Source: Bifidobacteriaceae bacterium (GTDB taxonomy: Bacteria > Actinomycetota > Actinomycetes > Actinomycetales > WQXJ01). Taken from it: a DNA stretch of 17,956 nucleotides. The DNA lies in assembly GCA_031265345.1 (NCBI GenBank), contig JAISCU010000466.1, positions 1 through 17,956 of the forward strand, read 5' to 3'. The notes under the pieces are model-generated. The model saw only the letters and a list, made by a program, of their open reading frames with translations, ran no database searches and was not told the DNA's origin. This document shows positions 922 to 17,808 of the stretch, piece by piece. A program made the position numbers and the translations under genes. How positions within the stretch are numbered: position 1 is the first letter of the stretch; every line of letters starts with the position of its first letter.

Positions 922-1156
922 CGCTTCCGGCCCAGCATCGAGATGTGCGGGATCGGTGCAGAAATGGCTGAGGTTGTTGGCGGATTTCGGAGCCGCCCGC
1001 AATCCGCGAAAGCCCGCATGCGACAGAGTCTGCCCAGGTCGGGGAGCGGCGACCGGGGCTTGTGGGCAAAGACGAGCCGGCGGCATCGGCGGCGTTCGAA
1101 ACCGGGGACAGACGGGGCCGCCCCGTGCGGTTCAAGTGCGGGCGCGCGGCGCGGGC

Positions 1157-1168: not shown

Positions 1169-1930
1169 GTGCCTCTCCCGCGAGCGCTCTACCGCGCGTA
1201 CGAGTGGCGCGTGCTCAAGGGGCTGTCGCGCGAGCATGTGCCACGCCACGTCGGCGTGATCCTGGACGGCAACCGGCGCTGGGCCAAGGGCGTGGGCGAA
1301 TCGACCGCCACCGGGCACCAGGTGGGGGCCGACAAGATCAGCGAGTTGCTGAACTGGTCCGAGGAGGTCGGCGTCGAACTGGTGACACTGTGGATGCTCT
1401 CGACCGACAACCTGGAGCGTCCGCCGGAGGAGCTGGGCCAGCTGATGGCGATCATCGAGCAGTCGGTCGAGAACCTGGCCCGCAGCGAGCGGTGGCGCGT
1501 CCAGGTCGTGGGCGCGCTCGACCTGCTGCCCTACGGCACAGCCGAACGCCTGCACCAGGCGCAGGCCCGGACAGCCGAGGTGGATGGGCTCCATGTGAAC
1601 GTCGCGATCGGCTACGGGGGGCGTCGAGAGATTGCCGATGCCGTGCGCTCGCTTCTCGCCGAACAGGCTCGCGCCGGCATATCGATCGACCAGTTGGCCC
1701 AGACCCTGGACGTGGAGCACATCGCCGAGCACCTCTACACGCGCGGCCAGCCCGACCCGGACCTGGTCATCCGCACCTCCGGCGAGCAGCGGCTGTCGGG
1801 TTTCCTGCTGTGGCAATCGGTCCACGCCGAGTACTACTTCTGCGAGGCTTTCTGGCCGGATTTCCGTAAGGTCGACTTCCTGCGGGCGCTGCGATCCTAC
1901 GCCGCCCGCGAGCGCCGCTTGGGGCGTTGA
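1169..1930 (+). CDS. uppS: Z-isoprenyl diphosphate synthase (short-chain, Rv1086-like)
   Basis: A 253-aa cis-prenyltransferase that condenses isopentenyl diphosphate with an allylic diphosphate in Z configuration, feeding polyprenyl-phosphate and cell-wall lipid-carrier synthesis. Visible family motifs: LDGNRRWA at 32-39 with the catalytic Asp33 and Asn35, LSTDNLERP at 77-85, VAIGYGGRREI at 145-155, and the C-terminal PDLVIRTSGEQRLSGFLLWQ block (197-216) with conserved Arg202, Arg208 and Ser210. DGNRRW instead of DGNGRW, and the close match of the C-terminal half to M. tuberculosis Rv1086 as I recall it, favour a short-chain (farnesyl) product, but chain length cannot be settled from sequence. 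GTG start; the upstream gene is divergent and fumC converges on it with a 41-bp gap. Confidence 0.93.
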   Translation: MPLPRALYRAYEWRVLKGLSREHVPRHVGVILDGNRRWAKGVGESTATGHQVGADKISELLNWSEEVGVELVTLWMLSTDNLERPPEELGQLMAIIEQSVENLARSERWRVQVVGALDLLPYGTAERLHQAQARTAEVDGLHVNVAIGYGGRREIADAVRSLLAEQARAGISIDQLAQTLDVEHIAEHLYTRGQPDPDLVIRTSGEQRLSGFLLWQSVHAEYYFCEAFWPDFRKVDFLRALRSYAARERRLGR

Positions 1931-3360: not shown

Positions 3361-3530
3361 GGCTCTACCGTCACACGAACGGGGGCACCTCGGGGCGAAC
3401 GCCGCCGGAGTGTCCAGTTGCCGTCGTGGTTCCCTCTGCACGATGCCGCGCATTCGTCCGTCCGCCATCCGCCGGTTTGGCGCCGCCCCGGCTCGAGCGC
3501 CCCCCGGACTGCGGGCGTGGGCGGCTTCGG

Positions 3531-3543: not shown

Positions 3544-4482
3544 ATGTCAGACCAACGCCCGAGCCCGCAGGAGCAGCCCGACCACATCCACACTCATGGC
3601 CCAGGCTTCGTGCCCTGGTACAAGCAGGCCGGGGCCTGGGTGGCGATTGGCGCGGTGGTGGTTGCCTGCTCCCTCGCGATGGTGATCGGCGCTAAGTCGC
3701 TGGCCAACCGGGCGGCATCGGACACCGCTAGCGATAGTCCCAGCGACAGTGCAGCCGGCAGCCAAAGCCCTGGCGCTGAAGCTTCTGCCGACGCGAGCCC
3801 CGAGGCGGACGGCAACTACGACCCGGTGGCGAAAGCCGAATGCCCCGCGACTGGGGAAGCGCCCGCGGCCGAAGCGGGCAAGCCGGCCGGGGCGACGGAC
3901 CTGGGCGGGATCGCGCTCGGCTGCGACGGAGTGCCGGGCGGCCCGGTGGCGGATGCTACCAGGATCTCCGTCGAGGTCATGTCGGACTACATCTGCCCGT
4001 TCTGCCAGCGTTTCGAGGAGCAGGTGGGACCCGCCCTGGAGCAGGCCATGCGCGACGGCCAGGTCAAGGTCACGGTGTACCCGATGGGCTACCTGGACGA
4101 CTTCTCGAGCACTGAGTACTCCTCGCGGGCGGCTCGCGCGGCGGTGGCTGTGGCCGGGCACGAGCCGGGGCATTACTGGGCTTTCAGCGAGTTGCTATGG
4201 CAGAACCAGCCGCCCGAGAACGGTCCTGGGCTGAGCGACCAGGAGATTGCGGACCTGGCGCGCGAGGCCGGGGTGGCCGATGACACGATCGCCCAGTTCA
4301 CCACCGGCGCCTACGACGAATGGGTGGCCAAGACCACCGCCAACGTGGCCGGTTCCGAGGGCTTCCAGGGCACTCCGTGGGTGCTGATCGGGGACGGGAC
4401 CAACAAGTACGCGTGGAATTGGTCCGAAGGCGACCTGCAGACCGCCATCGCTAAGGTGGCGGCAGGCCAGCAGCCGTCGTAG
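3544..4482 (+). CDS. Membrane-anchored DsbA-like thiol-disulfide oxidoreductase
   Basis: A 312-aa protein with a short cytoplasmic N-terminus, one membrane helix at about 31-50, an extracytoplasmic Ala/Ser/Asp/Glu-rich spacer (about 56-95), and a DsbA-like thioredoxin fold (Thioredoxin_4 type) from about 138. The active-site motif is CPFC at 151-154, and the cis-proline loop is Thr277-Pro278. Two further cysteines, C100 and C127, could form a structural disulfide; this is inference. The likely job is oxidising or shuffling disulfides in secreted proteins, as for actinobacterial DsbA-type proteins. The ATG at 3544 is chosen because everything upstream in the frame is antisense to fumC. A charged His-rich segment (DHIHTHG) precedes the helix. 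The partner (a VKOR or DsbB homologue) is not in the window. Confidence 0.92.
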
Positions 4483-5708: not shown

Positions 5709-5720
5709 TGGACGATGCCG
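5709..5720 (+). repeat. 12-mer motif TGGACGATGCCG, copy 1 (intergenic)
   Basis: Exact copy 23 bp after the mgsA stop, in noncoding DNA. It is one of seven exact copies in the window. It points toward copy 2 at 6490-6501. Confidence 0.85.
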
Positions 5721-5778
5721 CTCTTGCGGCTCCCAGCGTCACGCCAGGTTGCCGCCGCCCGTGTTCCTGGCCAGGTGG

Positions 5779-5806
5779 TTGCGTAGTCTGGTTTGTGATG
5801 TAAACT
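5779..5806 (+). promoter_or_regulatory. Promoter of the membrane protein/regulator/ABC operon
   Basis: TTGCGT (5779-5784), a 16-bp spacer and TAAACT (5801-5806), then 7 bases to the ATG at 5814. This is the best -35/-10 pair in the window and again predicts a leaderless mRNA. The surrounding GTTTGTGATGTAAACTAGAT is AT-rich compared with the rest of the window. It is the obvious place for the operon's own HTH regulator to act, which is inference. Confidence 0.6.
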
Positions 5807-5813
5807 AGATTGC

Positions 5814-6524
5814 ATGAGCACAGACGATGCCTTGGGCAAGGATGAGTCGACCCCGGAGAACGGAGTCGACCCGCGCGAGGCTCTCGACCCGCGCGAGGCG
5901 CTTGGCCTCAGCCGGAACGCCGCCGACCGTGCCACCGCGCTCTACAACAACGTGTCCCGTTTCTACACCGGCGCTTGGGGTCTGATTTGGCTGATCGGCT
6001 ACGGCGCCATGTGGCTTGGATCGTTGGGCCACGACGGCGAGCCGCCAGTCTGGGCGTATCTGGTGTTCTTCGGACTGATGGCGATCGGTCTGGTTGCGGG
6101 AGGGATCGTCGGGATCAGGTCGGGCGGCCAGATGGCGGGGCCGTCGCGGCTGGCCGGCGCCCTCTACGGCTGGAGCTGGGTCATCACCTTCGGGGTGGGG
6201 ATGAGCGCCCTCGGATTCATCGTGGACCGGTACGAACTGACCGGGAACGCTATCGGCGTGCTCTACAACGCCGTGGCGGCGGTCTTGGCGGGCGGCCTGT
6301 ACATGGCCGGAGCAGCCACGTTCAAGGAACCGGCGATGTTCGTGGTCGGAGCCGTGATGGCGGGACTGGCGCCGCTCGGTGCGGGAATCGGCGTTCCTGG
6401 CGGCTACTTGGCGATGGCCCTGGTCGGCGGCGGCCTGATGCTCTCCATGTTCGCCACCCAGACCTGGCAGGTGCGCAAGGCTGGGCGGGCGGCATCGTCC
6501 ATCGGGAAAGAACCTTCGCCGTGA
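5814..6524 (+). CDS. Multi-pass membrane protein preceding an HTH regulator
   Basis: A 236-aa protein of unknown function. A hydrophilic N-terminus (1-45) contains a duplicated DPREAL heptad-like unit, encoded by a direct repeat at 5868-5903. About six hydrophobic helices follow (roughly 50-70, 78-100, 108-130, 140-160, 163-182, 185-207), then a short basic tail. Its stop overlaps the GTG of the downstream winged-helix gene by 4 bp (GTGA). Such membrane-protein/HTH_34 pairs next to an ABC exporter suggest a sensor or signalling partner for the regulator, but nothing in the sequence proves this. Near its 3' end it carries an exact copy of the 12-mer motif. Confidence 0.85.
   Translation: MSTDDALGKDESTPENGVDPREALDPREALGLSRNAADRATALYNNVSRFYTGAWGLIWLIGYGAMWLGSLGHDGEPPVWAYLVFFGLMAIGLVAGGIVGIRSGGQMAGPSRLAGALYGWSWVITFGVGMSALGFIVDRYELTGNAIGVLYNAVAAVLAGGLYMAGAATFKEPAMFVVGAVMAGLAPLGAGIGVPGGYLAMALVGGGLMLSMFATQTWQVRKAGRAASSIGKEPSP
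6490..6501 (-). repeat. 12-mer motif TGGACGATGCCG, copy 2
   Basis: Exact copy on the minus strand, within the last codons of the membrane protein gene, where it reads Ala-Ser-Ser. It faces copy 1. Confidence 0.85.
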
Positions 6525-6817
6525 ACGAACTCGACCCGGTGATCCATGCGACCACCAGGCTGCGCATAGTCTCGGCACTGAACGCCATGAGCCCAGGCGA
6601 CAAGGTCGCCTTCAAGGCGCTGCAGAAGATGCTCGGGCTGACAGTGGGCAACCTGTCCGTGCACCTGACCAAGCTGGAGGGCGTCGGCTACGTACGCATC
6701 GACAAGACGTTCGAGGGACGCAAGCCCGCAACCTACGTCGAGTTGACGGCCAAGGGGCGGCTGGCGTTCGAGCAATATCTCAAGGATCTCAAGCAACTAC
6801 TGGGAGAACAACCATGA
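6521..6817 (+). CDS. Winged-helix transcriptional regulator (HTH_34 type)
   Basis: A 98-aa DNA-binding protein resembling the HTH_34 (PF13601) / small MarR-ArsR-like group. The helix-turn-helix spans about 29-55 (VAFKALQKMLGLTVGNLSVH), and the wing about 57-76 contains the typical RKPATYVELTAKGR string. A hydrophobic C-terminal helix (80-95) would dimerise. There are no cysteines, so it is not a thiol- or metal-cysteine sensor. GTG start at 6521 overlaps the preceding stop; GGGAAAG at 6504-6510 is a usable but distant Shine-Dalgarno. Its TGA overlaps the ATPase ATG (ATGA). Tight coupling suggests it regulates this operon. Its ligand is unknown. Confidence 0.92.
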   Translation: MNELDPVIHATTRLRIVSALNAMSPGDKVAFKALQKMLGLTVGNLSVHLTKLEGVGYVRIDKTFEGRKPATYVELTAKGRLAFEQYLKDLKQLLGEQP

Positions 6818-7620
6818 CTGAATCATCACCGGGGAGGCCGCTCGAGATCGAGGGCCTGGTCAAGAGCTACCGCGGTCAACGGGCCGTGGACGGCCTCTCC
6901 TTGAGCGTCGCAGCCGGGGAGATCGTGGGCTTCGTGGGGCCCAACGGCTGCGGCAAGACCACCACCATGCGCTGCGTGGTGGGACTGGCGAGGCCCGACT
7001 CGGGTCGGATCAGGGTGTTCGGCCATGAGCCTTCGGCGCCGGAAGCTCTGGGAATGGTCGGCTCGTTGATCGAGGAACCGGCTCTCTACACCGGTCTGAG
7101 CGGGCGCGGCCATCTGCGTGTGGCTGCTCGTTGGTGCGGGGCCAGCGAGGCCCGTGCCGACGAGGTGCTAGCGCTGGTGGGACTGGCGGAAACCGGCCGC
7201 AAACCCTGCGGCAAGTACTCGATGGGCATGAAGCAGCGCCTCGGCCTGGCCACCGCGCTGCTGAAAGACCCTCAACTGCTGGTGCTGGACGAGCCCTCCA
7301 ACGGACTGGACCCCGCCGGGTTGCGGGACATCCGCAACCTGCTCGGTCGGCTGCGGGCCGAGGGCCGGGCCGTGCTGCTCAGCTCGCACATGTTGGGGGA
7401 GGTCGAGGCCCTGGCCGACCGGCTCGTGATGGTCAGCCGAGGCGAAGTGGTCTATCAAGGCCCGTTGGACGGCGTGCTGGACGCCACCGGCGAACCGCGG
7501 CTGCTGGACGCGTTTCTCGCGTTGACCGAGCCGGCGCCCGGACCGGCAGGATTGTCCGCGACCGGACCCACCGGCGAAGCCCCGGTGGCCGCCAGCCGTG
7601 AAACCGTGTCGATCCGCTAG
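6814..7620 (+). CDS. ABC transporter ATP-binding protein (ABC-2 exporter type)
   Basis: A 268-aa nucleotide-binding subunit of the CcmA/DrrA class. Walker A is GPNGCGKT at 42-49, the signature is YSMGMKQR at 135-142, Walker B LLVLDEP at 155-161 and the switch His is at 192 (SSHML). The Cys in Walker A replaces a more usual Ser and is harmless in this family. The last 30 residues are Pro/Ala/Gly-rich and poorly conserved. A good Shine-Dalgarno (GGGAG at 6802) precedes the ATG by about 7 bases. It pairs with the permease next door; the substrate may be a lipid, drug or peptide and cannot be told from sequence. Confidence 0.95.
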   Translation: MTESSPGRPLEIEGLVKSYRGQRAVDGLSLSVAAGEIVGFVGPNGCGKTTTMRCVVGLARPDSGRIRVFGHEPSAPEALGMVGSLIEEPALYTGLSGRGHLRVAARWCGASEARADEVLALVGLAETGRKPCGKYSMGMKQRLGLATALLKDPQLLVLDEPSNGLDPAGLRDIRNLLGRLRAEGRAVLLSSHMLGEVEALADRLVMVSRGEVVYQGPLDGVLDATGEPRLLDAFLALTEPAPGPAGLSATGPTGEAPVAASRETVSIR

Positions 7621-7639
7621 CGAAACGGAGATGTTCGAA

Positions 7640-8542
7640 ATGACTGTTGCTATGGAGGCTGGGGCTCTGAGCAGACTCAGTCCGCCCGCCCTGCCGATCC
7701 GGGCCGCTTGGTCCACTGCCGTGCGGAACCGCTCGATCTGGGTCACGTTCGCGATGTATCTCGTGATGTCGGTCGGATTCGGCGTCGGCATGACTTATGC
7801 GATCTACAAGGGCATGGCCGGCGACGCGGCGGAGGCTGCCGCCGACCCGGCCCTGGCCGCCCAAATCGAAGGTTTCCGGGAGTCGTTCCTGCTGGCCAAC
7901 TTCGATGGTTTCGTGGCCGGGTTGCTGCCGTTCTGGGGTGCGGCCACCGCGTTGGCCCTGGGCGTGATGGTGGTCGGCTCGCAGTACGCGAAGCGGACGG
8001 TGAACATCATCTACACCCAGGGTTCGAGCCGCGTCGCCGTGCTGATGGCCCAAATCATTGCACTGGCAGGTCTGCTGGCCTTGTTGGTGGCGGCGACAGC
8101 GGCGGTGAACGCGGCCGGATGCGCGGTGGTGTCCGCGGTCGAGGGCTGGGAGATTGCCGCGCCGCCCCTTGGCGCGACCCTGGTGAGCGCGTTGACGACC
8201 TACTTGACGGCGCTGACCTACGGCATCGTCGGGGTGGCTTTGGCGGTGGTGACCCGGAGCGAGATGCAAGCCCTGGGAATAGGCCTGGTCTGGTTCCTGG
8301 GGATCGAGACCGTGCTCGTGTTGGTGTTCGGGGCGCTGGGCTGGGTCGACGCGGGGCAATTCACGCTCGCGGGCGCGACCTCTGATCTGGCGGTGGCGCG
8401 CGGCGCCTACCCCTGGTGGCCCAACAGCCTGACCGACCAAGCGACCACGGCCCAGGGCGTCGCGGGCGCGATCATCCAAATGGGATGGTTGGCGCTGGCG
8501 GCCGGAACCGCTCTCGGGCTGATTCGGCGTCGCGACATCTGA
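7640..8542 (+). CDS. ABC-2 type permease
   Basis: A 300-aa integral membrane subunit with about six helices: approximately 32-55, 100-120, 140-165, 185-210, 215-240 and 275-293. A hydrophilic extracytoplasmic-looking segment (58-90) follows helix 1, as usual for ABC-2 permeases of the NatB/YhgE-like kind. I take ATG 7640 as the start because GGAG at 7627-7630 lies 9 bases upstream. ATG 7631 and a GTG at 7598 that overlaps the ATPase gene are alternatives. It forms an exporter with the preceding ATPase, probably two copies of each. Confidence 0.9.
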   Translation: MTVAMEAGALSRLSPPALPIRAAWSTAVRNRSIWVTFAMYLVMSVGFGVGMTYAIYKGMAGDAAEAAADPALAAQIEGFRESFLLANFDGFVAGLLPFWGAATALALGVMVVGSQYAKRTVNIIYTQGSSRVAVLMAQIIALAGLLALLVAATAAVNAAGCAVVSAVEGWEIAAPPLGATLVSALTTYLTALTYGIVGVALAVVTRSEMQALGIGLVWFLGIETVLVLVFGALGWVDAGQFTLAGATSDLAVARGAYPWWPNSLTDQATTAQGVAGAIIQMGWLALAAGTALGLIRRRDI

Positions 8543-8592
8543 CCTCCTCGGCCATGCCCGTGCCCGAGCCCGAGAAATGAGAGAATCGGCCC

Positions 8593-9222
8593 GTGCCCTC
8601 AGCCTCCGCTTCCGCCGACGCGCCGTTCACCTACCGGCCGCGCACTGGCCCTGTGATGGCCATCGGGGTGTGGGCCGTGGCCGCGTGGGCAGTGGCGAGC
8701 TTGGCGGTGACCGAGCCGGGCCGCCTGGTGACCTGGGCCCCGCTAGCGGCGTTGATCTGCCTGACCATCTGGGCGGTCTTCTGGGCGCCGAAGGTCGTTG
8801 TTGGACCGGAGAGGCTGGAGGTCCGCAACGTCGCTGCCACCTATGAGGTGCCGTGGGCCGCGATCTCGCACATCGACACCAAATGGGCGCTGACTTTGTA
8901 CACCACGGGTGGCAGGATCACCGCCTTCGCGGCCCCGGCCCCTTCCGGGCTGCGAGCCGAGCACGCGTCGGGGAGCGCCGGGCTGAGGCACCTGCCGGAG
9001 TCCACCTTCGACGCCGGCCGGTCCGCTCGCCCCGGCGATGTGCCGGGCACCGCTTCGGGCGATCTGGCCTGGGTGATCCGCGAACGGTGGGAAAAGGTGC
9101 GCGATGCCGTGCCAACGGGTTCCGCGTCCGGCGCGGCCCCGATTCGGCGCTGGCATGTCAGGACTTTGGCGGCGTGGGCGGCGCTGGCCGTCGTGACGGC
9201 ACTGACCCAGGTCCTGGCCTGA
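8593..9222 (+). CDS. PH-domain (bPH_6-like) membrane protein
   Basis: A 209-aa protein with two N-terminal helices (about 20-37 and 44-66), a small bacterial PH-like domain at about 67-115 (VVVGPERLEVRN, then VPWAAISHI and LYTTGGRITAFAAP), a variable Gly/Ala/Ser-rich region and a C-terminal helix at about 190-207. The pattern matches PF10756-type proteins, which are common in actinobacteria and of unknown role. GTG start; GAGAAT at 8581-8586 ends 6 bases before it, and there is no Shine-Dalgarno, again fitting a leaderless transcript. It lies 50 bp after the permease, so it could also be read from the upstream operon. It converges on the peptide transporter gene. Confidence 0.82.
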   Translation: MPSASASADAPFTYRPRTGPVMAIGVWAVAAWAVASLAVTEPGRLVTWAPLAALICLTIWAVFWAPKVVVGPERLEVRNVAATYEVPWAAISHIDTKWALTLYTTGGRITAFAAPAPSGLRAEHASGSAGLRHLPESTFDAGRSARPGDVPGTASGDLAWVIRERWEKVRDAVPTGSASGAAPIRRWHVRTLAAWAALAVVTALTQVLA

Positions 9223-9270
9223 CGGCTGCGGCGTCGGCTCTATTCCAGGCGGCCAGGGTCCGCCCAGCGT

Positions 9271-12200
9271 CTAGGAAGGACCGTCCCCGCGGCGGGCGGC
9301 TTGGAGGTCCGGGTCGGGGACGGGGACGGCGGCGATCAACTCGCGGGTGTAGGGCTGCCGGGGATGGAGCAGGATCTGTTCGGCAGGGCCGGATTCGACC
9401 AGATGGCCCTTCGACATGACCGCGATCCGGGACGATACCTGCTGCACCACGGCCAGGTCGTGCGAAATGAACAAGCAGGCGAAGCCATGCTCGCGCTGCA
9501 GCTCGGAGAACAGGTCCAGCACTGTGGCCTGCACGGACACGTCCAGGGCGGAGGTCGGCTCGTCGGCTATCAGCAGTTTCGGCTTCAGCGCCAGGGCACG
9601 GGCGATCCCGACGCGCTGGCGCTGGCCGCCAGACAACTCGTGCGGGTAACGGTTGCGCAGCGAGGCCGGCAATTGGACCTGTTCCAGCAGGTCGGCGACC
9701 TGGGAATCTAGCGCTTTGCCCTTGGCCAGGCCGTGCAGCGCCAACGGCTCACCGATCGACTGGCCGATCGGCAGGCGCGGGTTCAAGGAGGAGCCAGGGT
9801 CCTGGAAGACGATCGACACGCCTTCGCGCGCTTGGCGCAGCCCCGCCCAGTCGATCCCCTTCAGCTCCCTCCCGGCCACTTTCAGCGACCCGGAATGCAC
9901 TGGCAGCAGCCCCACCACGGCCCGCCCCACGGTGGACTTCCCCGAGCCCGACTCTCCCACCAGGCCGACCACTTCGCCGGGGTTCACCACCAAGGAGAAG
10001 TCCTCGACGGCCCGGAAGGCCGGGGTCCGCCCGCGCCGGGGGTACTCGAGCGTGACGCCCTCGGCCGCCAAGACCGGTTCGTCCGACTTGGACGATGCCG
10101 CCGCCTCGCTTTCCGTCCCCACGCCCGGTCCGCCCTGGGCTGGCGACGCGCCCCGTGCCCGAGCCGCTGCGACGCCGGGAGCCGAGCGGACGGCATCGTC
10201 CACCGACTTGGTCTTCGGGTCTGCCCCCGCATCCGGACCCAAACCAACCTCCGGGGCCGGCTCCAACTCGGGTTCCAGGTCGAGCTTGGGCACGGCGGCC
10301 AGCAGCAGCTTGGTGTAGGGGTGGCGCGGCGCGTAGAAGATCTGCCGGGACGTGCCGGTCTCCACGATCACGCCGTCCTTCATGACGCAGATGCGGTCCG
10401 CCATGTCCGCCACCACACCCATGTCGTGCGTGATCAGGATGATGCCCGAATCGATGCGGGTCCGCAGGTCGCGCATGAGGGCCAGGATCTCGGCCTGGAC
10501 GGTGACGTCGAGCGCGGTGGTCGGCTCGTCCGCGATCAGCAGCTTCGGGTCCAGCACCAGCGCCTGGGCGATCATGGCCCGCTGCCGTTGGCCGCCGGAC
10601 AGTTGGTGCGGGTAGTAGTCGATCCGGATTTCCGGGTCCGGCATGTCCACCAGTTTGAGCATCTCGAGCGCGCGCTCGCGGGCATGCCTCGGCCCGGTGG
10701 GGCTGTGCGCGCGGATGGTCTCCGCGATCTGGAAGCCGATGGTGTAGACCGGGTTCAGCGCCGTCATGGGCTCCTGGAACACCATCGCGATCTGCGCGCC
10801 CCGCACCGCGTGCAGTTCGGACGGGCGCATGCCGACCAGTTCCCGGCCCGAGAGCTTGACCGAGCCGGACACTCGTGCGTTGGGCGGCAACAGCCCGATC
10901 AGCGCCATCGACGATTGCGTCTTGCCACTGCCCGATTCGCCCACGATGGCCAGCACCTCGCCGGGGCTGACGTCGTACGACACATCGACGGCGGCCGGGA
11001 ACCATTCGCCCTCGACGTAGAAGTCCACGTTCAAGCCGTCCACCCGCAGGATCGGCTCGGCGCTGCCTGGCGCCGGTGGTTTGGACGATGCCGTGGCGCC
11101 GGTTCCGGAGGCGCCATCGGGTGCGCGCTCGGGCGGCCTGGGAGCCTCGGGGTGCTCCGAGGCCAGCCGAGCGGCATCGTCCACCGCTAACTGGGCGGCC
11201 AACTTGCGGGCGGCGCGGGCCATCTTGCGCTTCGACGGGATGCGGCGCTGGCGGGGGTCGAAGGCGTCGCGCAGGCCGTCGCCCACGAAGTTCACGCACA
11301 GCGCGATCGTGATGATGAAGAAGCCCGGCCACCAGAACAACCATGGGCGCTGGGAGAAGGCGGACTGGTATTCGGACACCAGGTTGCCCAGCGAGATGTC
11401 GGGGAAGTGGATGCCGAAGCCCAGGTAGCTGAGCGCGGTCTCCAACAGGATCGCGGCGGACATCAGCAGGGTGGCGTTGACGATGATCACGCCGACCGCG
11501 TTGGGCAGGATGTGCTTGACGATGATGCGGGTGTTGGACGCGCCCGCCACGCGTGCGGCATCGACGAACTCGCGTTCGCGCAGGGACAGGAAATCGGCCC
11601 TGACCAGGCGGCTCATGGGCATCCATTCGACGAACGCCAGCGCCAGGCCCAGGGTCAGGGCGGAGGCGCCGTTGACCCAATGGCCCAGGACCATGCCGAT
11701 CACCATCACGGGGATGGCGATCATCATGTCGGTGAAGCGCATCAGGAGGGTGTCCACCCGGCCCCGGAAGAACCCGGCCGCGGCGCCGATCACCACCCCG
11801 ATCAAGGTGGCCAACAGGCCGATCAGCACCATCACCGTGAGCGACTGCTGGGCGCCGCGCATGGTCATGGCGAACATGTCGTGGCCAACCGTGTCCTGGC
11901 CGAAGGGATGCTCGCCGATGTGCACGCCATTGGTGAGCGAGATCGACAGCGTCGGCTTGCCGCCGGGGACGGCGATGGGATAGGTGGACCAGTAGTTGTG
12001 CTTCCACCAGCCGGGGATGGGGCCCCAGCCGATCGACGTGGTCACCAGGATGATGAGCACGGCCAGGACCGCCATGGCGATGATCGCGCCGCGGTGGCGG
12101 AAGAAGCGGCGGCGCACTATCTGGCCTTGCGACAGCCCCTCGGTGGCCCTGAGCTCGATGGCGTTCTCGCCCGCGCCCGCGGAGCCGGTCAGGGCGGAGG

Positions 12201-12351
12201 CGTGGGCCGTGCCGTCTGCGCCTTCTGTGCCGCGGGGGCCGTCTGTGCCGCCGGGGCCGTCCAGGTCGCCGGAATTATCCAGGTCGGCGATGGCGCCGGT
12301 CAGGTCGGGGATGGCGTCGGGTTGGCGGTCCGATGGTGTCAGTGGGCTCAT
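9271..12351 (-). CDS. Fused oligopeptide ABC transporter: DppC permease + DppD ATPase + DppF ATPase
   Basis: A 1026-aa single polypeptide holding three normally separate importer subunits. Residues 1-75 are a Gly/Asp-rich variable tail. Residues about 76-370 are a DppC/OppC permease with helices near 88-108, 170-195, 205-223, 230-248, 286-306 and 340-358, and the EAA loop at about 263-284 ([20 protein letters not shown]). ATPase 1 (about 433-690, DppD/OppD) has Walker A GESGSGKT at 471-478, LSGGQ at 584-588, Walker B LLIADEP at 604-610 and His642. ATPase 2 (about 758-1010, DppF/OppF) has Walker A 799-806, LSGGQ 906-910, Walker B 926-932 and His964. Both carry the family's C-terminal HPYT/QPYT motif. 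Each low-complexity linker (about 377-432 and 691-757) is bracketed by inverted copies of the 12-mer. The ATG overlaps the dppB stop (ATGA). The frame is uninterrupted, so the fusion is not an obvious sequencing artefact. Confidence 0.95.
10089..10100 (+). repeat. 12-mer motif TGGACGATGCCG, copy 3 (linker 2, inner end)
   Basis: Exact copy inside the linker between the two ATPase domains; on the coding strand it reads Ala-Ser-Ser-Lys (residues 752-755). It faces copy 4; outer edge to outer edge is 114 bp, exactly 38 codons. Confidence 0.85.
10191..10202 (-). repeat. 12-mer motif TGGACGATGCCG, copy 4 (linker 2, outer end)
   Basis: Exact copy on the coding strand of the fusion gene, encoding Val-Asp-Asp-Ala (residues 717-720), where the linker after ATPase 1 begins. 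It is convergent with copy 3. Confidence 0.85.
11082..11093 (+). repeat. 12-mer motif TGGACGATGCCG, copy 5 (linker 1, inner end)
   Basis: Exact copy at the end of the linker between the permease and the first ATPase, read as Ala-Ser-Ser-Lys (421-424) on the coding strand. It is paired with copy 6. Confidence 0.85.
11172..11183 (-). repeat. 12-mer motif TGGACGATGCCG, copy 6 (linker 1, outer end)
   Basis: Exact copy encoding Val-Asp-Asp-Ala (390-393) near the beginning of linker 1. With copy 5 it brackets 102 bp (34 codons). The DNA between the pair is not similar to that between copies 3 and 4. Confidence 0.85.
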
Positions 12352-13883
12352 GCTTGCATCCGAATCCGTGGATCGAGGCCGGCGTAGACGAGGTCCGCGA
12401 CTATGTTCGCGGCGATGGCCAGGACGGCGGTGACGACGAAGTAGCCCATCACGCCGTAGATGTCGCCGTGGCGCAGCGCCTCGATGAACATGGTGCCCAT
12501 CCCCCGCCAGGAGAAGATGCGCTCGGTGATGATGGCTCCGCCGAACACCAGGGCCACGTCTATCGGCACGATGGTGGCCAGCGGGATCAGCGCGTTGCGG
12601 AAGGCGTGACGGACCACCACGGTGCGCTCGCTCAGGCCTTTGGCGCGGGCGGTGCGGATGTAGTCGGCGTTCATGACCTCCAGCATGGAGCTGCGGGTGT
12701 AACGGGTGTAACTGGCGAAGCTGATCAGCACCAGCGCGGTGGTGGGAAGGACCAGGTGGGTGAGCACGTCGGTGGCGGAGAACCAGAACGAGCCGCCCAA
12801 TTCCGGGGTGACCGCGCCGAGCGTGCTGATCGGCCGGCCGTCCACGCGGGGGGAAGCCATGTAGGCGGGCCAGGCCTGCATCAGGCGGTCCGCGAACACG
12901 AACACGGACATCACGATGGCGGTGAGCGCGGCTGTGCGGGCCGAGGCTCGCCGGTCTGGGCCGCCCCAGAGCCACCCGACGGTCATCCCGATCGCTGCGG
13001 CGGTGACCCAGAGCCCAGCGATGACCAGCCAGTTAGTGGCCACGAAGGCATATTGCAGGGGGTAGTACAAGGCCGTTCCCACCCCGACGGTTGTCAGTGT
13101 GGCGTACAAGACCCGGCGGTTGCCCAGGCCCGCACTCAAGGCGGTGAGGGCCACTGCCACGCCCGCGCCGGTGAGGGCCACGCCCACAATCCCCAGGCCG
13201 GGCTTGAGCAAGAAGTGCGTGGCTGAGACATAGGCTGCCACGCCGGTCACGGCGGCGAAGGCGACCATGCCCACTAGCAGTCGCATCCCGGTTCGTCCTC
13301 CGGCTATCAGGGCGGCCACCACGCCAGCCACCGCTCCGATGGCCAGGCAGGCCCGGATCGGCAATTCTGCCTCGGCCAAGAAGTCGTTGAACCGGATGGC
13401 GCCGAACTCCTTCAGGAGCACGGCTACCCAGAAGGCCGGGAGCGAATAAAACAGGAAGGTGAAGAACGTAGTCAAGTAATCGAAGGCCGAATACTGGCGA
13501 AGCGCCGTGGTGATTCCAACGGCCACGCCCAGCAGGATCGCGATGATGAGCGATCCGAACACCAGTTTGACTGTGGTCGGCACGGCCACGGCCAACTGGG
13601 CCGACACTGCTTGACCGTTGATGATCGAAATGCCGAAAGTGCCGTGGCCCCAGAGGTAGGCAACCAGGTTGCCGAGCCATTTGAAATAGCGAAGAACCGG
13701 CGGGATGTCCAGGTCAAGGGCAGAGACGGTGCGCGCGATCAAGATCTCCTTGTTCGGCGCGCTTGAGGCCTTCAGTTCTGCCAGGGGATCAACGGCGACG
13801 GCCACCATCATGAAGACGATGAACGTGGCGCCGAGTAAGACGATCACCCCCACCGCGAGGCGGCGAGCTATGAACGAAAGCAC
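12348..13883 (-). CDS. dppB: Oligopeptide ABC transporter permease, DppB type, with large membrane insertion
   Basis: A 511-aa permease; DppB/OppB proteins are normally about 300-340 aa. The N-terminal block (1-171) carries the family's first helix (MLSFIARRLAVGVIVLLGATF) and the VPTTVKLVFGSLIIAILLGV helix. The C-terminal block (about 342-511) carries the EAA loop at 408-431 (YIRTARAKGLSERTVVVRHAFRN) and the standard ending AGLDPRIR. Between them, residues about 172-340 are an extra segment with roughly five hydrophobic helices. The GTG start lies 6 bases after TAGGCT, so it may have its own leaderless promoter. Its stop overlaps the downstream fusion gene by 4 bp. It forms the membrane channel with the DppC domain of that protein. 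Confidence 0.93.
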   Translation of the reverse strand: MLSFIARRLAVGVIVLLGATFIVFMMVAVAVDPLAELKASSAPNKEILIARTVSALDLDIPPVLRYFKWLGNLVAYLWGHGTFGISIINGQAVSAQLAVAVPTTVKLVFGSLIIAILLGVAVGITTALRQYSAFDYLTTFFTFLFYSLPAFWVAVLLKEFGAIRFNDFLAEAELPIRACLAIGAVAGVVAALIAGGRTGMRLLVGMVAFAAVTGVAAYVSATHFLLKPGLGIVGVALTGAGVAVALTALSAGLGNRRVLYATLTTVGVGTALYYPLQYAFVATNWLVIAGLWVTAAAIGMTVGWLWGGPDRRASARTAALTAIVMSVFVFADRLMQAWPAYMASPRVDGRPISTLGAVTPELGGSFWFSATDVLTHLVLPTTALVLISFASYTRYTRSSMLEVMNADYIRTARAKGLSERTVVVRHAFRNALIPLATIVPIDVALVFGGAIITERIFSWRGMGTMFIEALRHGDIYGVMGYFVVTAVLAIAANIVADLVYAGLDPRIRMQA

Positions 13884-13889
13884 CGTGTC

Positions 13890-13895
13890 AGCCTA
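13890..13895 (-). promoter_or_regulatory. Candidate -10 element before dppB
   Basis: TAGGCT on the minus strand, then six bases (gacacg) to the GTG start. No convincing -35 is seen. It lies downstream of two hairpins that follow oppA, so the permease/ATPase genes may be transcribed separately from oppA. Confidence 0.4.
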
Positions 13896-13962
13896 ACCCC
13901 AGTGTGCGCCGGAGCACCAGAACCGCGGTCGTGTCGGCCATTGCGGCGATGGGCCCGCCGCC

Positions 13963-14002
13963 GCGCGACCACGGTATGGGACTCCCAATACCGTGATCGC
14001 GC
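13963..14002 (-). terminator. Long hairpin between oppA and dppB
   Basis: Arms 13963-13980 and 13985-14002 pair over 18 positions with two mismatches (at 13969/13996 and 13978/13987) and a 4-base loop. There is no T-run on either side, so it is not a textbook intrinsic terminator. Between a binding-protein gene and its permease gene, such structures commonly reduce read-through or protect the upstream mRNA 3' end. Confidence 0.6.
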
Positions 14003-14027
14003 AGCATCCAGCAGCCATTGATCAAAC

Positions 14028-14074
14028 GGCCGGGCTGGCCAGGCGGCGATCATTACCGCCTGACCCGTCCGGCC
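14028..14074 (-). terminator. Hairpin directly after oppA stop
   Basis: The inner stem CAGGCGG (14040-14046) pairs with CCGCCTG (14056-14062) around a 9-base loop. The outer stem GGCCGG (14028-14033) pairs with CCGGCC (14069-14074). The 6-by-6 interval between them also pairs partly. It begins 18 bp after the oppA stop and is followed by the second hairpin at 13963-14002. Confidence 0.55.
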
Positions 14075-14091
14075 AGATGGTCGTCAACTGA

Positions 14092-15942
14092 TCAGCTAGC
14101 GACCTCCCAGTCCCAGAAGTTCCAGAACATGGTCCCTGAGATGGCGGTCATCGACACGTTCTTGATGTCGTCCCGCCAGGCCAGCACCGATGGGAACTGG
14201 TAGAGGGTGATCCCGAAGCCGTCCTCCAACAGGATGGTTTCGACCTCGGTGTTGATCTCTTCTTGCCGCTTCGGGTCGGTGGCTGTCTCCAACTCGGAGT
14301 ACAACTCGTCCACCCTGGTGTTCGAGAAGTGGCCGAAGTTGTTCTGGCCGGTCGAGATGAAGTTCGCAGCCGGTTCGAACACGGCCGTCGAGGTGTTCTG
14401 CCAACCGAACAACGAGGCGTCGTAGGTGTTGTCGCCCAGCTTGGTGCCCCATTCGTCGGATCCGGCATCAATGATCTCGAACCCGGCCTGGGTGGCCGAC
14501 TCGTGGATCAACTGGAACTCCTGGACGCGCCGGGCGTTCGACTTGCCGTACATGAGGCGCACCTGGGGCGCGGTCACGCCAGCTTCCGCCAGCAACGCCT
14601 TGGCGCCTTCAATGTCGACGTCCTGGTACGCCGCGAACCCGTTGGCCGCGACCGTCGCGTCGTAGTTCGGCGAGCCGGGCACCAGGTTGTACGAATCGCG
14701 GGTGGCGGCATCGGGCTGCGTCGGCTTGATAATCGTGTCCACGATCTGCTGGCGCGGGATGGTCTTCAGGAACGCCTGGCGCACCTTCTTGGCCTTGTCC
14801 GCATCGCCACCGTAGGTGGCCGGGTCGAACGGGCCGCCGTTGTCATAGGTCAGGTCGACATGCTCGTAGGTGCCTTCATAACCGGATTCGTTGCTGACGC
14901 CGTCAATCCCCTGCACGGCGGTCAGCACGTCAGCGGTCACCTGCGGCTGGATGATGTCCAGATCGCCGTTCTGCAGCGCTTGAACCTGAGCCATCGGGTC
15001 CTCGTTGTAGCGCACAATGACCTCGTCGACCTTGGCCGGAGTGCCCCAAGTGAAGTCAGGGTTCTTCTTCAGCGTGACGTACTGGCCCTCGACGTAATCG
15101 CTGATCAGCATGGGCCCGCAGGACAGAACCAATTCGACGTCGTCGCCTTCAGGCATAGCCGTGAGGTCGAAATCGAAGCTCCAGACCTTGGCGATCTTGG
15201 CCAGGTCCTCAGTGTTCTTGTCTTGGATGGCCTTGGCCACGGCGGCCTGCGCTTCGGCCGGGTCATCGATCCCCAGCGCCCGCTTGCCCACCACATGGGC
15301 AGGCAGCGGATAGTCGGGGAAGTTGTACTGCCAGTCCGGGAACGGCTTGGAGTAGACGAAGGTGATCTCTTTGTCGTCTTCCGAGATGGTCGGAGTGTCC
15401 TGGATGATCGCCACGGCTGGGTCGCCAGCGTCGAAGTAGACCTTGCCCTCGGTCACGCCGGTGACGGCGCCTTCCTCATTGGTTTCGATGTCCGCGTCGG
15501 AAGTGTCGTTGAACACGCTCGACCGCGCCGCCCATTCGAGCAGCAGGTCCACTGCCGAGAGCGGCGTGCCATCCGACCACTTGGCTTCGGGGTTGATCGT
15601 CTGGGTGATGGTCAGCGGATCTTCCGAATCGACCCGCATCTGGCCCAGTTCCTCGTTCTTGACGAAGTTCAGGTCCGGGTCGTAGTAGGCCCAGTTGGCC
15701 CGCGTCATGTAGGTGATGACATAGTTAGCGGTTGCATGGCCGTTGCCGGACATGTAGTTCATGGAGAACAGAGGCTGGTTCCAGCCGACTGTGACGGTGC
15801 CGCCGCCCGTGGTCGTGGGGGCGCCGCTCTTGTCGCCGGTCCCGGCGTCATCCGTCGACGGGGCATTGCAACCGCTGACCACCAGGGCCAGCGCCGCGGC
15901 CGCAGCACCGATCGCCGCCAGTCTTCCGTGGCGAGTTGTCAT
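14092..15942 (-). CDS. oppA: Oligopeptide/dipeptide-binding lipoprotein (SBP family 5)
   Basis: A 616-aa extracytoplasmic solute-binding protein. The signal peptide (1-24) ends in a lipobox V-S-G-C with the lipidated Cys25, then a Ser/Thr/Gly-rich spacer. The mature protein has the family-5 layout: WSDGTPLSAVDLLLEW (about 146-161), a PDFTWG/VDEVIVRYNEDPMAQVQALQNGDLDII block, and a C-terminal lobe with LAEAGVTAPQVRLMYGKSNARR. It delivers peptides to the DppB and DppC-DppD-DppF proteins encoded downstream; other family-5 ligands (nickel, sugars) cannot be excluded. ATG 15942 is preceded by a strong Shine-Dalgarno, GAAGGAG with 6-base spacing (15949-15955), unlike most genes here. The frame is open to 16257 but without family homology. 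Confidence 0.94.
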   Translation of the reverse strand: MTTRHGRLAAIGAAAAALALVVSGCNAPSTDDAGTGDKSGAPTTTGGGTVTVGWNQPLFSMNYMSGNGHATANYVITYMTRANWAYYDPDLNFVKNEELGQMRVDSEDPLTITQTINPEAKWSDGTPLSAVDLLLEWAARSSVFNDTSDADIETNEEGAVTGVTEGKVYFDAGDPAVAIIQDTPTISEDDKEITFVYSKPFPDWQYNFPDYPLPAHVVGKRALGIDDPAEAQAAVAKAIQDKNTEDLAKIAKVWSFDFDLTAMPEGDDVELVLSCGPMLISDYVEGQYVTLKKNPDFTWGTPAKVDEVIVRYNEDPMAQVQALQNGDLDIIQPQVTADVLTAVQGIDGVSNESGYEGTYEHVDLTYDNGGPFDPATYGGDADKAKKVRQAFLKTIPRQQIVDTIIKPTQPDAATRDSYNLVPGSPNYDATVAANGFAAYQDVDIEGAKALLAEAGVTAPQVRLMYGKSNARRVQEFQLIHESATQAGFEIIDAGSDEWGTKLGDNTYDASLFGWQNTSTAVFEPAANFISTGQNNFGHFSNTRVDELYSELETATDPKRQEEINTEVETILLEDGFGITLYQFPSVLAWRDDIKNVSMTAISGTMFWNFWDWEVAS

Positions 15943-16340
15943 GTGTCGCTCCTTCGTTGTTTCGGCATCGTGTCCCCGATGCGCTTGGGTATGGTTCGCG
16001 GAGTCCTGCGCGCTTCGGCCTCGACCAGACCTGCCTGGAGCACCAATTCCCCGGTCGTTGCAGCCAACAATAAACGCTTGTCGGCGGTCGTTGGGGAACA
16101 AGAGCCCATCGTCCGATGCCGCTGAGACGGGCATCGCGCACCCGCACGGGAGCCGGCGGCAGGCTTCTGACCAGCCGAAACGGGGCCTTTGCAGGTGCGG
16201 ACAGCCCGCTCCGACGTCCCGTTTGACGCCCAAGGGGCCGCCGGAATTGTTGCCCACTTGTTATAAACCGGGCCGCGTCGGGGGCGTAGCCGGGCCGCCG
16301 GGGCCTTGCTCAGCGGTCGTGACGACAGCCTGCCGGAGCC
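15943..16340. other. Intergenic region upstream of oppA (about 400 bp)
   Basis: No credible gene. On the minus strand TATAAC at 16265-16260 is the best -10 candidate, but it has no good -35 and would give a leader of about 310 nt. Two small hairpins lie in that leader: CGATGCC/GGCATCG (16114-16120 and 16130-16136) and GCATCG/CGATGC (15965-15970 and 15977-15982), the latter just before the oppA ribosome-binding site. I recognise no riboswitch class. The hairpin arms resemble the GATGCC core of the repeated 12-mer. The stretch 16266-16340 after xseB holds nothing I can identify. Confidence 0.5.
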
Positions 16341-16550
16341 TCACTCAGCCGCTGGGGCCTTGGCCGCGATCCGGGCTTTGGCGCCGTCCAGCCACTCCTG
16401 GCACCGTGCCGCCAGGGCCTCGCCGCGCTCCCACAGCGCCAACGCCTCTTCGAGGGTCTGCGACCCGGCCTCGAGCTCTTGGACCACCTGGACCAGTTCG
16501 GCCCGCGCCTGCTCGTAGGTCAGGTCTTCGACTGGCACCGGCACGCTCAT
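16341..16550 (-). CDS. xseB: Exodeoxyribonuclease VII small subunit
   Basis: A 69-aa protein matching XseB in size and pattern: [20 protein letters not shown] (10-29), [15 protein letters not shown] (32-46), then a basic helix to the C-terminus. It forms a two-helix coiled coil and binds in several copies to XseA to make the ssDNA exonuclease that produces short oligonucleotides. It follows xseA on the same strand, but 64 bp away and behind a strong hairpin. ATG 16550 sits 6 bases after TAGGGT, so it probably has its own leaderless promoter. Confidence 0.95.
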
Positions 16551-16556
16551 GCTCCA

Positions 16557-16562
16557 ACCCTA
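16557..16562 (-). promoter_or_regulatory. Candidate -10 element of a leaderless promoter for xseB
   Basis: TAGGGT on the minus strand, then tggagc and the ATG at 16550. The GGAG is only one base from the ATG, too close to act as a Shine-Dalgarno. The hexamer is identical to that before the DsbA-like gene. Confidence 0.5.
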
Positions 16563-16573
16563 GCCGAGCGTCC

Positions 16574-16612
16574 AGGAACACGGGTTGGCGTCTGACGCTA
16601 ACCCGTGTTCCT
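16574..16612 (-). terminator. Hairpin between xseA and xseB
   Basis: Arms 16574-16591 and 16595-16612 pair over 18 positions, all Watson-Crick except one G-T position (16587/16599), with a 3-base loop. It starts 2 bp after the xseA stop. No T-run follows on the minus strand. It probably ends or attenuates the xseA transcript, with xseB restarted from its own promoter. Confidence 0.7.
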
Positions 16613-16614
16613 TC

Positions 16615-17808
16615 TCACAGGGGCGCCGCCTCGGCTCCGAACGCGCCTCCCGCCACGCGCACGCGCAGCTTGTCCCCGGCCGCCACCTGGCCGGGCTCGG
16701 TCACCAGCGCGCCCGCCTTGGTCACCACGGCGTAGCCGCGTTCCAGCGTGGCCTGCGGCGACAGCGCCACCAGCCGCCCGTTCAGGGTCTGCAGGGACGC
16801 CTCGGACAGACTCAACCGTTGCCCGATGCCGCGCCGCGAGTCCGCCACCAAGCTCATCACCTCGGCCGCCCGGTTGGCGATCATCCAAGTCGGGTCCTTC
16901 AGCGCGGGGCGCGAGCGGAACACCGCCAACGCCTCCCGCTCGTGGTCTACCCGGGCGGCGATGGTGCGCCGGAGCCGGGCGGCGGCATCGTCCATCAAAG
17001 CCGATTCGTCGGCCAGGTCCGGGACGATCCGCTTCCCGGCGTCCGTCGGCGTGGCGGCGCGGAAGTCCGCCACCAGGTCCAAGATTGGCGAATCGGGCTC
17101 GTGTCCAATGGCGCTCACCACCGGGGTGGCGGCCGCTGCCACTGCCCTGACCAGGGACTCGTCGGAGAACGGCAGCAGGTCCTCGAGCGAACCGCCGCCG
17201 CGGGCTATCACGATCACTTCGACGGCCGGGTCGGCGTCCAGCTCACTCAACGCGGCCATGACTTGCGCGGCGGCGGTCGGGCCCTGGACGGCGGTGTTGC
17301 GGACGGCGAAGCGGACCGCGGGCCAACGGCGGCCCGCGACCTCCACCACGTCGTGCTCGGCTTTGGAGTCGCGGCCGCAGATCAGGCCGATCAGCCCCGG
17401 CGCGAACGGGAGCGGACGCTTGCGGGCGGACGCGAACAGCCCTTCGGCGGCCAGTTTCCGTTTGAGCTGCTCCAACTGGGCCAGAAGCTGCCCCTCGCCG
17501 GCCAGCCGGACCTCGCGGACCTTGAAGGACAGGCGCCCCTGCTTGGTCCAGAACTCGAATTTGCCGTTGACCACCGCCCTGGAGCCCTCGCGCAGGTCCA
17601 GGCCGATCAGCGCCGAAGCGGGGATCGAGATGTCGATCGAGACGTTCTGGTCCACGTCCCGCAGCACGCCGAAAGCCATCGAGGCGCGGCGGTTGAACTG
17701 GACCACCTGGCCCTCCAGCCAGACCGCGCCGAGCTTCGCCACATAGCCTCTGACCAGTTCGGACACGCGGGAGACTGGCCATGGTGCGTCCGGCGACGAA
17801 TCGTTCAT
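16615..17808 (-). CDS. xseA: Exodeoxyribonuclease VII large subunit
   Basis: A 397-aa catalytic subunit of exonuclease VII, which degrades single-stranded DNA from both ends. An N-terminal OB-fold (about 10-105: VSRVSELVRGYV, then VWLEGQVVQF) binds DNA. The catalytic core follows, with IGLICGRDSKAEHDV at 140-154, RGGGSLEDLLPF at 203-214, and GHEPDSPILDLVADFRAATPTDA at 235-257. A helical segment and a short C-terminal beta region (LERGYAVVTKAG) complete it. At just under 400 aa it is near the short end of the family, as usual in actinobacteria. The start is ATG 17808, with GGGAGG about 8 bases upstream; the overlapping GAGGATTGAGCG also resembles the leaderless-start pattern. It contains one exact 12-mer copy. 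Confidence 0.96.
   Translation of the reverse strand: MNDSSPDAPWPVSRVSELVRGYVAKLGAVWLEGQVVQFNRRASMAFGVLRDVDQNVSIDISIPASALIGLDLREGSRAVVNGKFEFWTKQGRLSFKVREVRLAGEGQLLAQLEQLKRKLAAEGLFASARKRPLPFAPGLIGLICGRDSKAEHDVVEVAGRRWPAVRFAVRNTAVQGPTAAAQVMAALSELDADPAVEVIVIARGGGSLEDLLPFSDESLVRAVAAAATPVVSAIGHEPDSPILDLVADFRAATPTDAGKRIVPDLADESALMDDAAARLRRTIAARVDHEREALAVFRSRPALKDPTWMIANRAAEVMSLVADSRRGIGQRLSLSEASLQTLNGRLVALSPQATLERGYAVVTKAGALVTEPGQVAAGDKLRVRVAGGAFGAEAAPL
16983..16994 (-). repeat. 12-mer motif TGGACGATGCCG, copy 7 (inside xseA)
   Basis: Exact copy on the coding strand of xseA, encoding Met-Asp-Asp-Ala (residues 272-275) in the variable helical part after the catalytic core. No exact partner in the opposite orientation is nearby. 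Confidence 0.85.

Follow-up and report, generated by a model that had tools for sequence, protein, structure and literature searches.

A short DNA word dense in one family of Actinomycetota: a probable uptake sequence of independent origin

Introduction

To our knowledge, the short words that mark DNA as "self" for uptake have so far been known from only two distant bacterial families, and here we describe a probable further case, which came to light as a repeated 12-mer, TGGACGATGCCG, in a 17,956-nucleotide stretch of actinobacterial DNA (hereafter the window, meaning the whole stretch analysed). The DNA uptake sequence (DUS) of the Neisseriaceae is ATGCCGTCTGAA with its dialects, and its receptor is ComP; eight dialects on a fixed CTG core, along with inverted pairs, have been described (PMC3630211). 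The uptake signal sequence (USS) of the Pasteurellaceae comes in AAGTGCGGT and ACAAGCGGT types; its intragenic copies, sense and antisense alike, are biased to gene ends (PMC2346458), and an analysis of uptake data from Haemophilus influenzae found no effect of orientation (PMC1939737). Competence in the actinobacterium Micrococcus luteus makes use of an Flp/Tad pilus (PMC6370729), and ComEA and ComEC also take part in it. In the literature consulted we came upon no uptake word for M. luteus, and no title or abstract opening among the open-licence papers listed by our searches names an actinobacterial uptake sequence.

The first-pass annotation of the window had attributed the 12-mer to selection or spread at the DNA level, and had offered an uptake sequence, a nucleoid or segregation motif and a short mobile repeat as candidates. 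Counts far above Markov and codon-shuffle expectation in relatives of the window bear out the general claim; among the candidates the uptake sequence fits best, while the mobile repeat does not fit and a strand-polar segregation motif conflicts with the strand balance of the sites. We consider it likely that the motif is a DNA uptake sequence serving pilus-driven natural transformation, and that it arose independently.

A common core with lineage-specific flanks

TGGACGATGCCG outnumbers every other 12-mer in the window, with seven exact copies distributed over both strands and one single-mismatch copy (TGCACGATGCCG); in 200 dinucleotide shuffles of the window, copies with at most one mismatch averaged 0.23 and never exceeded 2, so that none reached 8. 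It represents the strongest part of a broader signal whose common unit is the 8-mer core CGATGCCG, of which the window has 19 copies where a third-order Markov model predicts 2.95; weight matrices from relatives also give good scores to several window sites whose flanks differ. In naming the exact 12-mer, the annotation had caught one dialect only, with the common unit as part of it.

Word statistics were taken from stretches of nine relatives. When 8-mers are ranked by how far they depart from a third-order Markov model, CGATGCCG comes out first or second in eight samples; in the ninth, G225 (25 kb), the leading words are ACGATGGC, CCATCGTC and CGATGGCG. The annotation had suggested counting the word in relatives against a Markov background, and the counts are far from that expectation: sites above 15 bits number 331 in G074 against 15 in fifth-order Markov simulation, 314 against 31 in G041, 90 against 6 in G131 and 99 against 5 in G089. 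The density in G074 is about 0.43 sites per kb (331 in 768 kb).

The sampled family members have the core in common and differ in its flanks, and we refer to these variants as dialects. TGGA stands in front of the core in the window, and TGG(A/C) in front and (T/C)CC behind in G074; G131 and G089 have C in front and T(C) behind, and G041 and G145 have TTGCC in front. Besides CGATGCCG, CGATGGCG is a second abundant word in G117, G201 and G225, possibly a second dialect inside one genome. Base preference in G074 extends over about 15 positions, with a weak (A/G)GNT element near +16 to +19, and is close to nil beyond about 20 bp from the core; duplication of linker segments, which the annotation had raised as an alternative, therefore does not explain the copies.

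Distribution among related genomes

Genome-wide counts were made in relatives of the window, not in its source genome. The sample comprised 396 genomes from the order of an Actinotalea metagenome-assembled genome (MAG), among them one family of 18 genomes of 1.8–4.0 Mb, and per-Mb densities were calculated from the genome counts. The 12-mer is dense in 14 of the 396 genomes (42–239 copies, 15–89 per Mb), all of them within that one family; the annotation's other alternative, that the copies are confined to the window, does not hold. Most of the 396 genomes have 0–15 copies, and a reversed control pattern gives 0–3 per strand. The four motif-poor family members have 14 (G213), 23 (G103), 9 (G058) and 5 (G159) copies, and none of the 378 genomes that do not belong to the family exceeds the 12 per Mb of G229, which has 37 copies in 3.0 Mb. 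The richest outsiders, G229 and G192 (31 copies), are close relatives in a tree of XseA, and their copies possibly reflect codon usage or a weak relative of the system. The family claim rests on the 12-mer, since the 10-mer CGATGCCGTC, tried as a family-wide marker, placed only 10 of the 18 family genomes above every control (40 non-family genomes with 11–191 copies each, at most 69 per Mb).

The nearest kin to which the window's XseA led are among the motif-rich members: identity is 82% in G089 and G131, 80% in G041, 78% in G145, 77% in G187 and 74% in G074, falls to 54% in G117 and G201, and is 85% over a partial match in G247, while a search with the window XseA did not find the protein in G225 or G213. 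The best 120 of 7988 matches to the window XseA include MAG proteins that carry the NCBI label "Bifidobacteriaceae bacterium". In 80 named loci, which are too distant, there was no exact copy of the 12-mer. Termite Bifidobacteriaceae have smaller genomes than the family described here, averaging 1.56 Mb (Ancillula) and 1.23 Mb (Opitulatrix), and the main text of that study does not mention competence, DNA uptake or type IV pili (PMC11707648).

Pilus and competence genes

All results on machinery come from relatives, and we presume that the window's own genome carries the same machinery; genome completeness figures formed no part of the presence and absence counts. The motif is associated with the pilus motor. 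The match to the pilus-retraction ATPase PilT (TIGR01420) is strong in 13 of the 14 motif-rich family genomes, 12 of them above the cut-off and G225 with a strong partial match, and in none of the four motif-poor members (G213, G103, G058 and G159), which together with motif-rich G269 have only weak matches (49–62 bits), those in the motif-poor four being to the wider ATPase family. In G041 the type IV pilus cluster holds PilB (T2SSE and MshEN domains), PilT, PilC, PilD and PilM, and G131 encodes pilins with an N-methylation motif as well as minor-pilin-like proteins. The annotation had also proposed a look for comEA and comEC, and both occur in relatives: a comEA (SLBB and HHH domains) adjoins comEC in G041, the one genome in which ComEA was seen, and ComEC was found in 17 of 20 genomes tested, including five of five non-family controls. 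PilM was found in 20 of 35 genomes (10 of 15 in the family, five of five near named kin and five of 15 other order members), the matches in G103 and G019 being short and weak. Neither ComEC nor PilM separates motif-rich from motif-poor genomes.

G269 is an odd case, rich in the 12-mer (50 in 1.9 Mb) and poor in CGATGCCGTC (27), with no strong PilT and no PilM match; its assembly may be incomplete, or it may have lost the pilus recently, with tags now decaying.

Selection at the DNA level

Could the word be a by-product of codon and amino-acid usage, arising from Asp-Ala-rich linkers in GC-rich genes? Sense copies prefer one frame, which encodes D-A, and a few copies are present in most non-family genomes, both as such a by-product would have it. 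The decisive comparison is with synonymous-codon shuffling, which keeps proteins and codon usage: in genes called by a simple coding-score script rather than a standard gene finder, G074 has 256 genic sites against a mean of 25.7 after shuffling, and G041 has 247 against 47.7. Genic sites are 5–10 times commoner than in the shuffles, which leave just 10% and 19% of them, and antisense and intergenic copies are abundant. This refutes the by-product explanation for G074 and G041, and we give it a negligible chance overall; the motif is under DNA-level selection inside genes.

One site can be followed between species. At the spot in xseA that holds the window copy at 16983, the core is present in four of the 11 other family members examined, with the window's left flank in G041 and other flanks in G187, G089 and G145, and the residues beside it vary (VDDAA, VADAV, VSDAV and ASDAV, respectively). 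The core is absent from this spot in G131, G074, G173, G269, G258, G103 and G236; the partial G247 sequence stops short of it, and the comparison did not extend to G117 and G201. In other words, the site persists in some close kin and is absent from others, including the close G131.

These data also bear on a short mobile repeat or transcription-terminator element spread by copying. Such an element would suit the intergenic inverted pairs that could form hairpins (some 14–22 bp apart; at up to 60 bp apart, six in G074 and one in G041), and it would suit the excess of same-strand pairs within 150 bp, which resembles local repeats (24 against 10.7 in G074; 47 against 12.5 in G041). It is disfavoured, and to our minds very improbable, given the narrow base preference in G074, the location of most sites in or touching genes (261 of 331 in G074, 249 of 314 in G041) and the persistence of the xseA site across several species despite changing flanking bases.

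Strand balance and spacing

No strand bias was found in the contig stretches examined, none of which is a closed genome (179/186 in G074, 39/38 in G131 and 59/61 in G041). Sites above 15 bits in G041 divide 157/157, and on contig C13 of G074, where the GC skew is single-signed throughout, sites divide 42/46.

Same-strand copies avoid each other within about 1.5–2 kb, and opposite-strand copies do not; the pattern is clear in two genomes and weak in two smaller samples, so the spacing rule rests on G074 and G041. In G074, same-strand pairs at 150–2000 bp number 46 against about 129 expected, and opposite-strand pairs at 300–2000 bp number 119 against about 117 (sums of bins); below 300 bp, convergent pairs number 37 and divergent pairs 7, against 10.6 expected for each. 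Pairs at 300–1500 bp in G041 number 46 against 98 on the same strand and 104 against 99 on opposite strands, with no same-strand deficit at 1500–2000 bp (41 against 40) and a same-strand excess at 150–300 bp (20 against 12.5). The deficit is small in G131 (90 sites; 9 against 14 at 300–1000 bp) and slight in G089 (99 sites; 40 against 50 at 300–1500 bp). Same-strand gaps in G074 have a coefficient of variation of 0.67, where the mean over 27 words of like count, core included, is 1.04; on two long contigs of this genome the core alternates strand in 0.71 of successive pairs, against at most 0.55 for 26 words of like count. Alternation is strong in G074 (214 of 310, p 1.7e-11), reaches 48 of 78 in G131 (p 0.054) and is absent in G089 (47 of 92). 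For G041 it is 171 of 303 (p 0.029), or 169 of 266 (p 1e-5) after removal of same-strand clusters within 150 bp, a step chosen once the first result was known.

Two further explanations turn on these patterns. A motif of chromosome organisation or segregation, bound by a nucleoid protein, an SMC loader or an FtsK-type translocase, would account for the fairly even per-strand spacing in G074. FtsK-type signals (FtsK orienting polar sequences, KOPS) are strongly strand-polar from origin to terminus, whereas the sites here are strand-balanced, and neither flank dialects nor low counts in PilT-less kin are expected of such a motif; judged on fragmented assemblies and not on whole-chromosome positions, it seems improbable.

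The other is a Chi-like recombination hotspot, a word that an end-processing nuclease of the AdnAB/AddAB type would read in one orientation and at which it would turn from degradation to recombination. Like Chi, the word is an over-represented oligonucleotide with an octamer core and high copy number, and same-strand exclusion with opposite-strand independence suits a signal read in one orientation. Chi sites show a leading-strand bias, and none appears here along stretches whose GC skew is uniform; in RecBCD, Chi is read by RecC, for which a model that works in Escherichia coli gave no match in 18 of 18 family genomes (AdnAB and AddAB were not searched for). Additionally, about 15 bp with a weak outlying element, as in G074, is long for a Chi. 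A Chi-like signal predicts same-strand exclusion too, but not the tie to PilT, and in its known form it would need RecC; we regard it as unlikely.

A model of uptake

We propose that cells of this family make a type IV pilus and that a pilus receptor, perhaps a minor pilin, would bind double-stranded DNA bearing T-G-N-(A/C)-CGATGCCG-(C/T)-C. PilT retraction would pull this DNA to the membrane, ComEA and ComEC would pass one strand inward, and homologous recombination would install the incoming strand in the chromosome. If motif-bearing fragments were taken up more often, motif-bearing alleles would spread (uptake drive), and copies would accumulate on either strand at positions where the encoded protein permits, for example in linkers. 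As the receptor drifted between lineages, the flanks would follow, giving dialects around a fixed core, and lineages that lost the pilus would have lost the motif, with cause running from pilus to word. Upkeep at the DNA level in one family, dialects, copies on both strands and scarcity without the pilus motor are what uptake drive, working through a sequence-reading receptor on the pilus, would leave behind.

How does the word compare with the described systems? The Actinomycetota, a different phylum, have no outer membrane, unlike the Neisseriaceae. As with the DUS, the word is short and non-palindromic and is abundant on either strand, both within genes and between them; some copies form inverted pairs, the family has dialects around a fixed core, and type IV pilus and ComEC genes accompany the word. 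The G131/G089 dialect, CCGATGCCGTC(T), even has ATGCCGTC(T) in common with the Neisseria DUS, probably by coincidence. The intergenic inverted pairs capable of forming hairpins have counterparts in the Neisseriaceae (PMC3630211). Unlike the DUS, the word has CGATGCCG rather than an invariant CTG as its core (PMC12616744), and no ComP was identified, pilin-like proteins having been seen and no ComP comparison made. The likeness to the USS lies in high copy number, the lack of a strand bias along the chromosome, clade-dependent types and weaker preferences beside the core; the GCGG core of the USS (PMC12616744) is unrelated to CGATGCCG, and the gene-end bias of the Pasteurellaceae (PMC2346458) was not found in the four family genomes examined for it. 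With M. luteus the family has ComEA and ComEC in common; its pilus differs, being a type IV pilus with PilB, PilT, PilC and PilM instead of Flp/Tad (PMC6370729).

Several observations weigh against the uptake-sequence interpretation. Uptake itself and the receptor are what we infer from genomes. The intergenic enrichment that the annotation had proposed to look for is present but slight, at 1.33-fold (p 0.013) and 1.25-fold (p 0.048), and gene-end bias of the Pasteurellaceae type is missing, with flat quintiles in G074, G041 and G089; sense copies in G131 are uneven over gene quintiles (4, 9, 4, 15, 4; p 0.01), not toward the ends. Fisher's exact p of 0.0016 for PilT against motif richness across the 18 family genomes overstates their independence, since they share ancestry, and G269 has 26 copies of the 12-mer per Mb yet no strong PilT match. 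ComEC was not found in three of the 15 family genomes tested, nor PilM in five of 15, and since order members that lack the motif can have ComEC and, to some extent, PilM, possession of these genes is not enough to produce it. In favour of the interpretation, motif-poor G103 lies in the XseA tree beside a group of ten rows that includes the window (100/99 support), and motif-rich G236 and G117/G201 branch further out, placing motif-rich lineages on either side of G103; the simplest account, not a proven one, is joint loss of pilus and motif in the G103 line. That tree is midpoint-rooted and places G103 as the only motif-poor member, leaving out G213, G058 and G159; the fork joining G236 is modestly supported (83/71), and the family does not come out as a single clade when set against six outside rows.

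A bolder proposal concerns direction and starts from the same-strand exclusion, which suggests that a further tag in the same orientation within about 2 kb brings no gain, whereas one in the opposite orientation does. The receptor may read the word in one orientation and draw in DNA from one side, as part of an uptake sequence evolved independently in the Actinomycetota; we put this forward tentatively, as an idea that could be right and is somewhat more likely to be wrong. Same-strand copies within about 1.5–2 kb would then be redundant and not kept, while opposite-strand copies would be independent. The H. influenzae finding on orientation (PMC1939737) makes this proposal the more daring and lowers its probability.

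Sites in the window

At seven copies in 18 kb, the window surpasses every counted genome in density; if its rate were that of G074, the densest (239 per 2.7 Mb), seven or more copies would have a probability of 0.0013, and the window, having been selected for its copy density, gives no unbiased estimate for its genome. The seven exact copies and the one-mismatch copy are all present as the annotation had listed them. Scores are given on the G074 weight matrix unless the G041 matrix is named. The copy at 5709..5720 (+; 19.9 bits) is convergent with that at 6490..6501 (−; 25.8 bits), at the 3' end of the open reading frame 5814–6524. Four of the seven lie in the linkers of a single open frame at 9271–12351 (−), which unites the permease and two ATPase domains of an oligopeptide ABC transporter, presumably in the domain order of the DppC-DppD-DppF type, and which may be a fusion or an assembly artefact. 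Here 10089..10100 (+; 28.2 bits), antisense and just ahead of the second ATPase domain, is convergent with 10191..10202 (−; 30.3 bits, the top window site), which encodes VDDA in the linker joining the two ATPase domains; 11082..11093 (+; 24.6 bits), antisense in the linker ahead of the first ATPase domain, is convergent with 11172..11183 (−; 17.4 bits), which encodes VDDA in the linker behind the permease domain. The seventh copy, 16983..16994 (−; 23.7 bits), lies within xseA, where it encodes MDDA, and the one-mismatch copy is at 3437..3448 (+; 15.9 bits).

Further cores are preceded by TGTC at 3713..3720 (−; 23.6 bits), by TTGC at 1636..1643 (+; 15.2 bits, 19.7 on the G041 matrix), by CAGCC at 14706..14713 (−; 16.3 bits) and by TTGCC at 16824..16831 (+; 18.4 bits), the last lying 159 bp from the xseA copy and convergent with it. 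Cores with other flanks are at 1081..1088 (−; 18.5 bits) and 9102..9109 (+; 18.0 bits), and one with a weak flank is at 16114..16121 (+; 9.5 bits, 17.5 on the G041 matrix). The close pairs 10089/10191, 11082/11172, 16824/16983 and 3441/3713 are all convergent.

The window has a GC content of 67% and codes, among others, for a haemolysin-III-like membrane protein, undecaprenyl diphosphate synthase, fumarase C, ABC transporters and XseA. Rfam at gathering thresholds gave no match in the window or in three stretches of relatives, and a nucleotide search of a plasmid collection with the window returned only partial ABC-transporter matches. Among the relatives, a second repeated word near CCGTCCCC (CACCGTCCCCTT, GGTACCGTCCCC, AGGACCGTCCCC) occurs five to eight times each in the G041, G131 and G145 samples, and the G074 sample has about 40 copies of overlapping GC-rich words (e.g. 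TTACCCCCGCCT and CCTGCGCGGGGA) that resemble the repeats of clustered regularly interspaced short palindromic repeat (CRISPR) arrays.

Outlook

If the word is an uptake sequence, it would add to the two known families a third and unrelated example from a distant phylum, and self-tagging would appear to evolve repeatedly where a retractable pilus feeds transformation. The family would then offer a comparative test of uptake drive, with its PilT-less kin as natural losses, and co-variation along its series of dialects could help to find the receptor. The rule of spacing on each strand, should it hold in closed genomes, would be a quantitative prediction for models of uptake drive. If the receptor does read the word in one direction, each strand of these chromosomes would carry its own evenly spaced lattice of tags, interleaved with that of the other strand, and one could read from the genome how long imported tracts are and which way they run.

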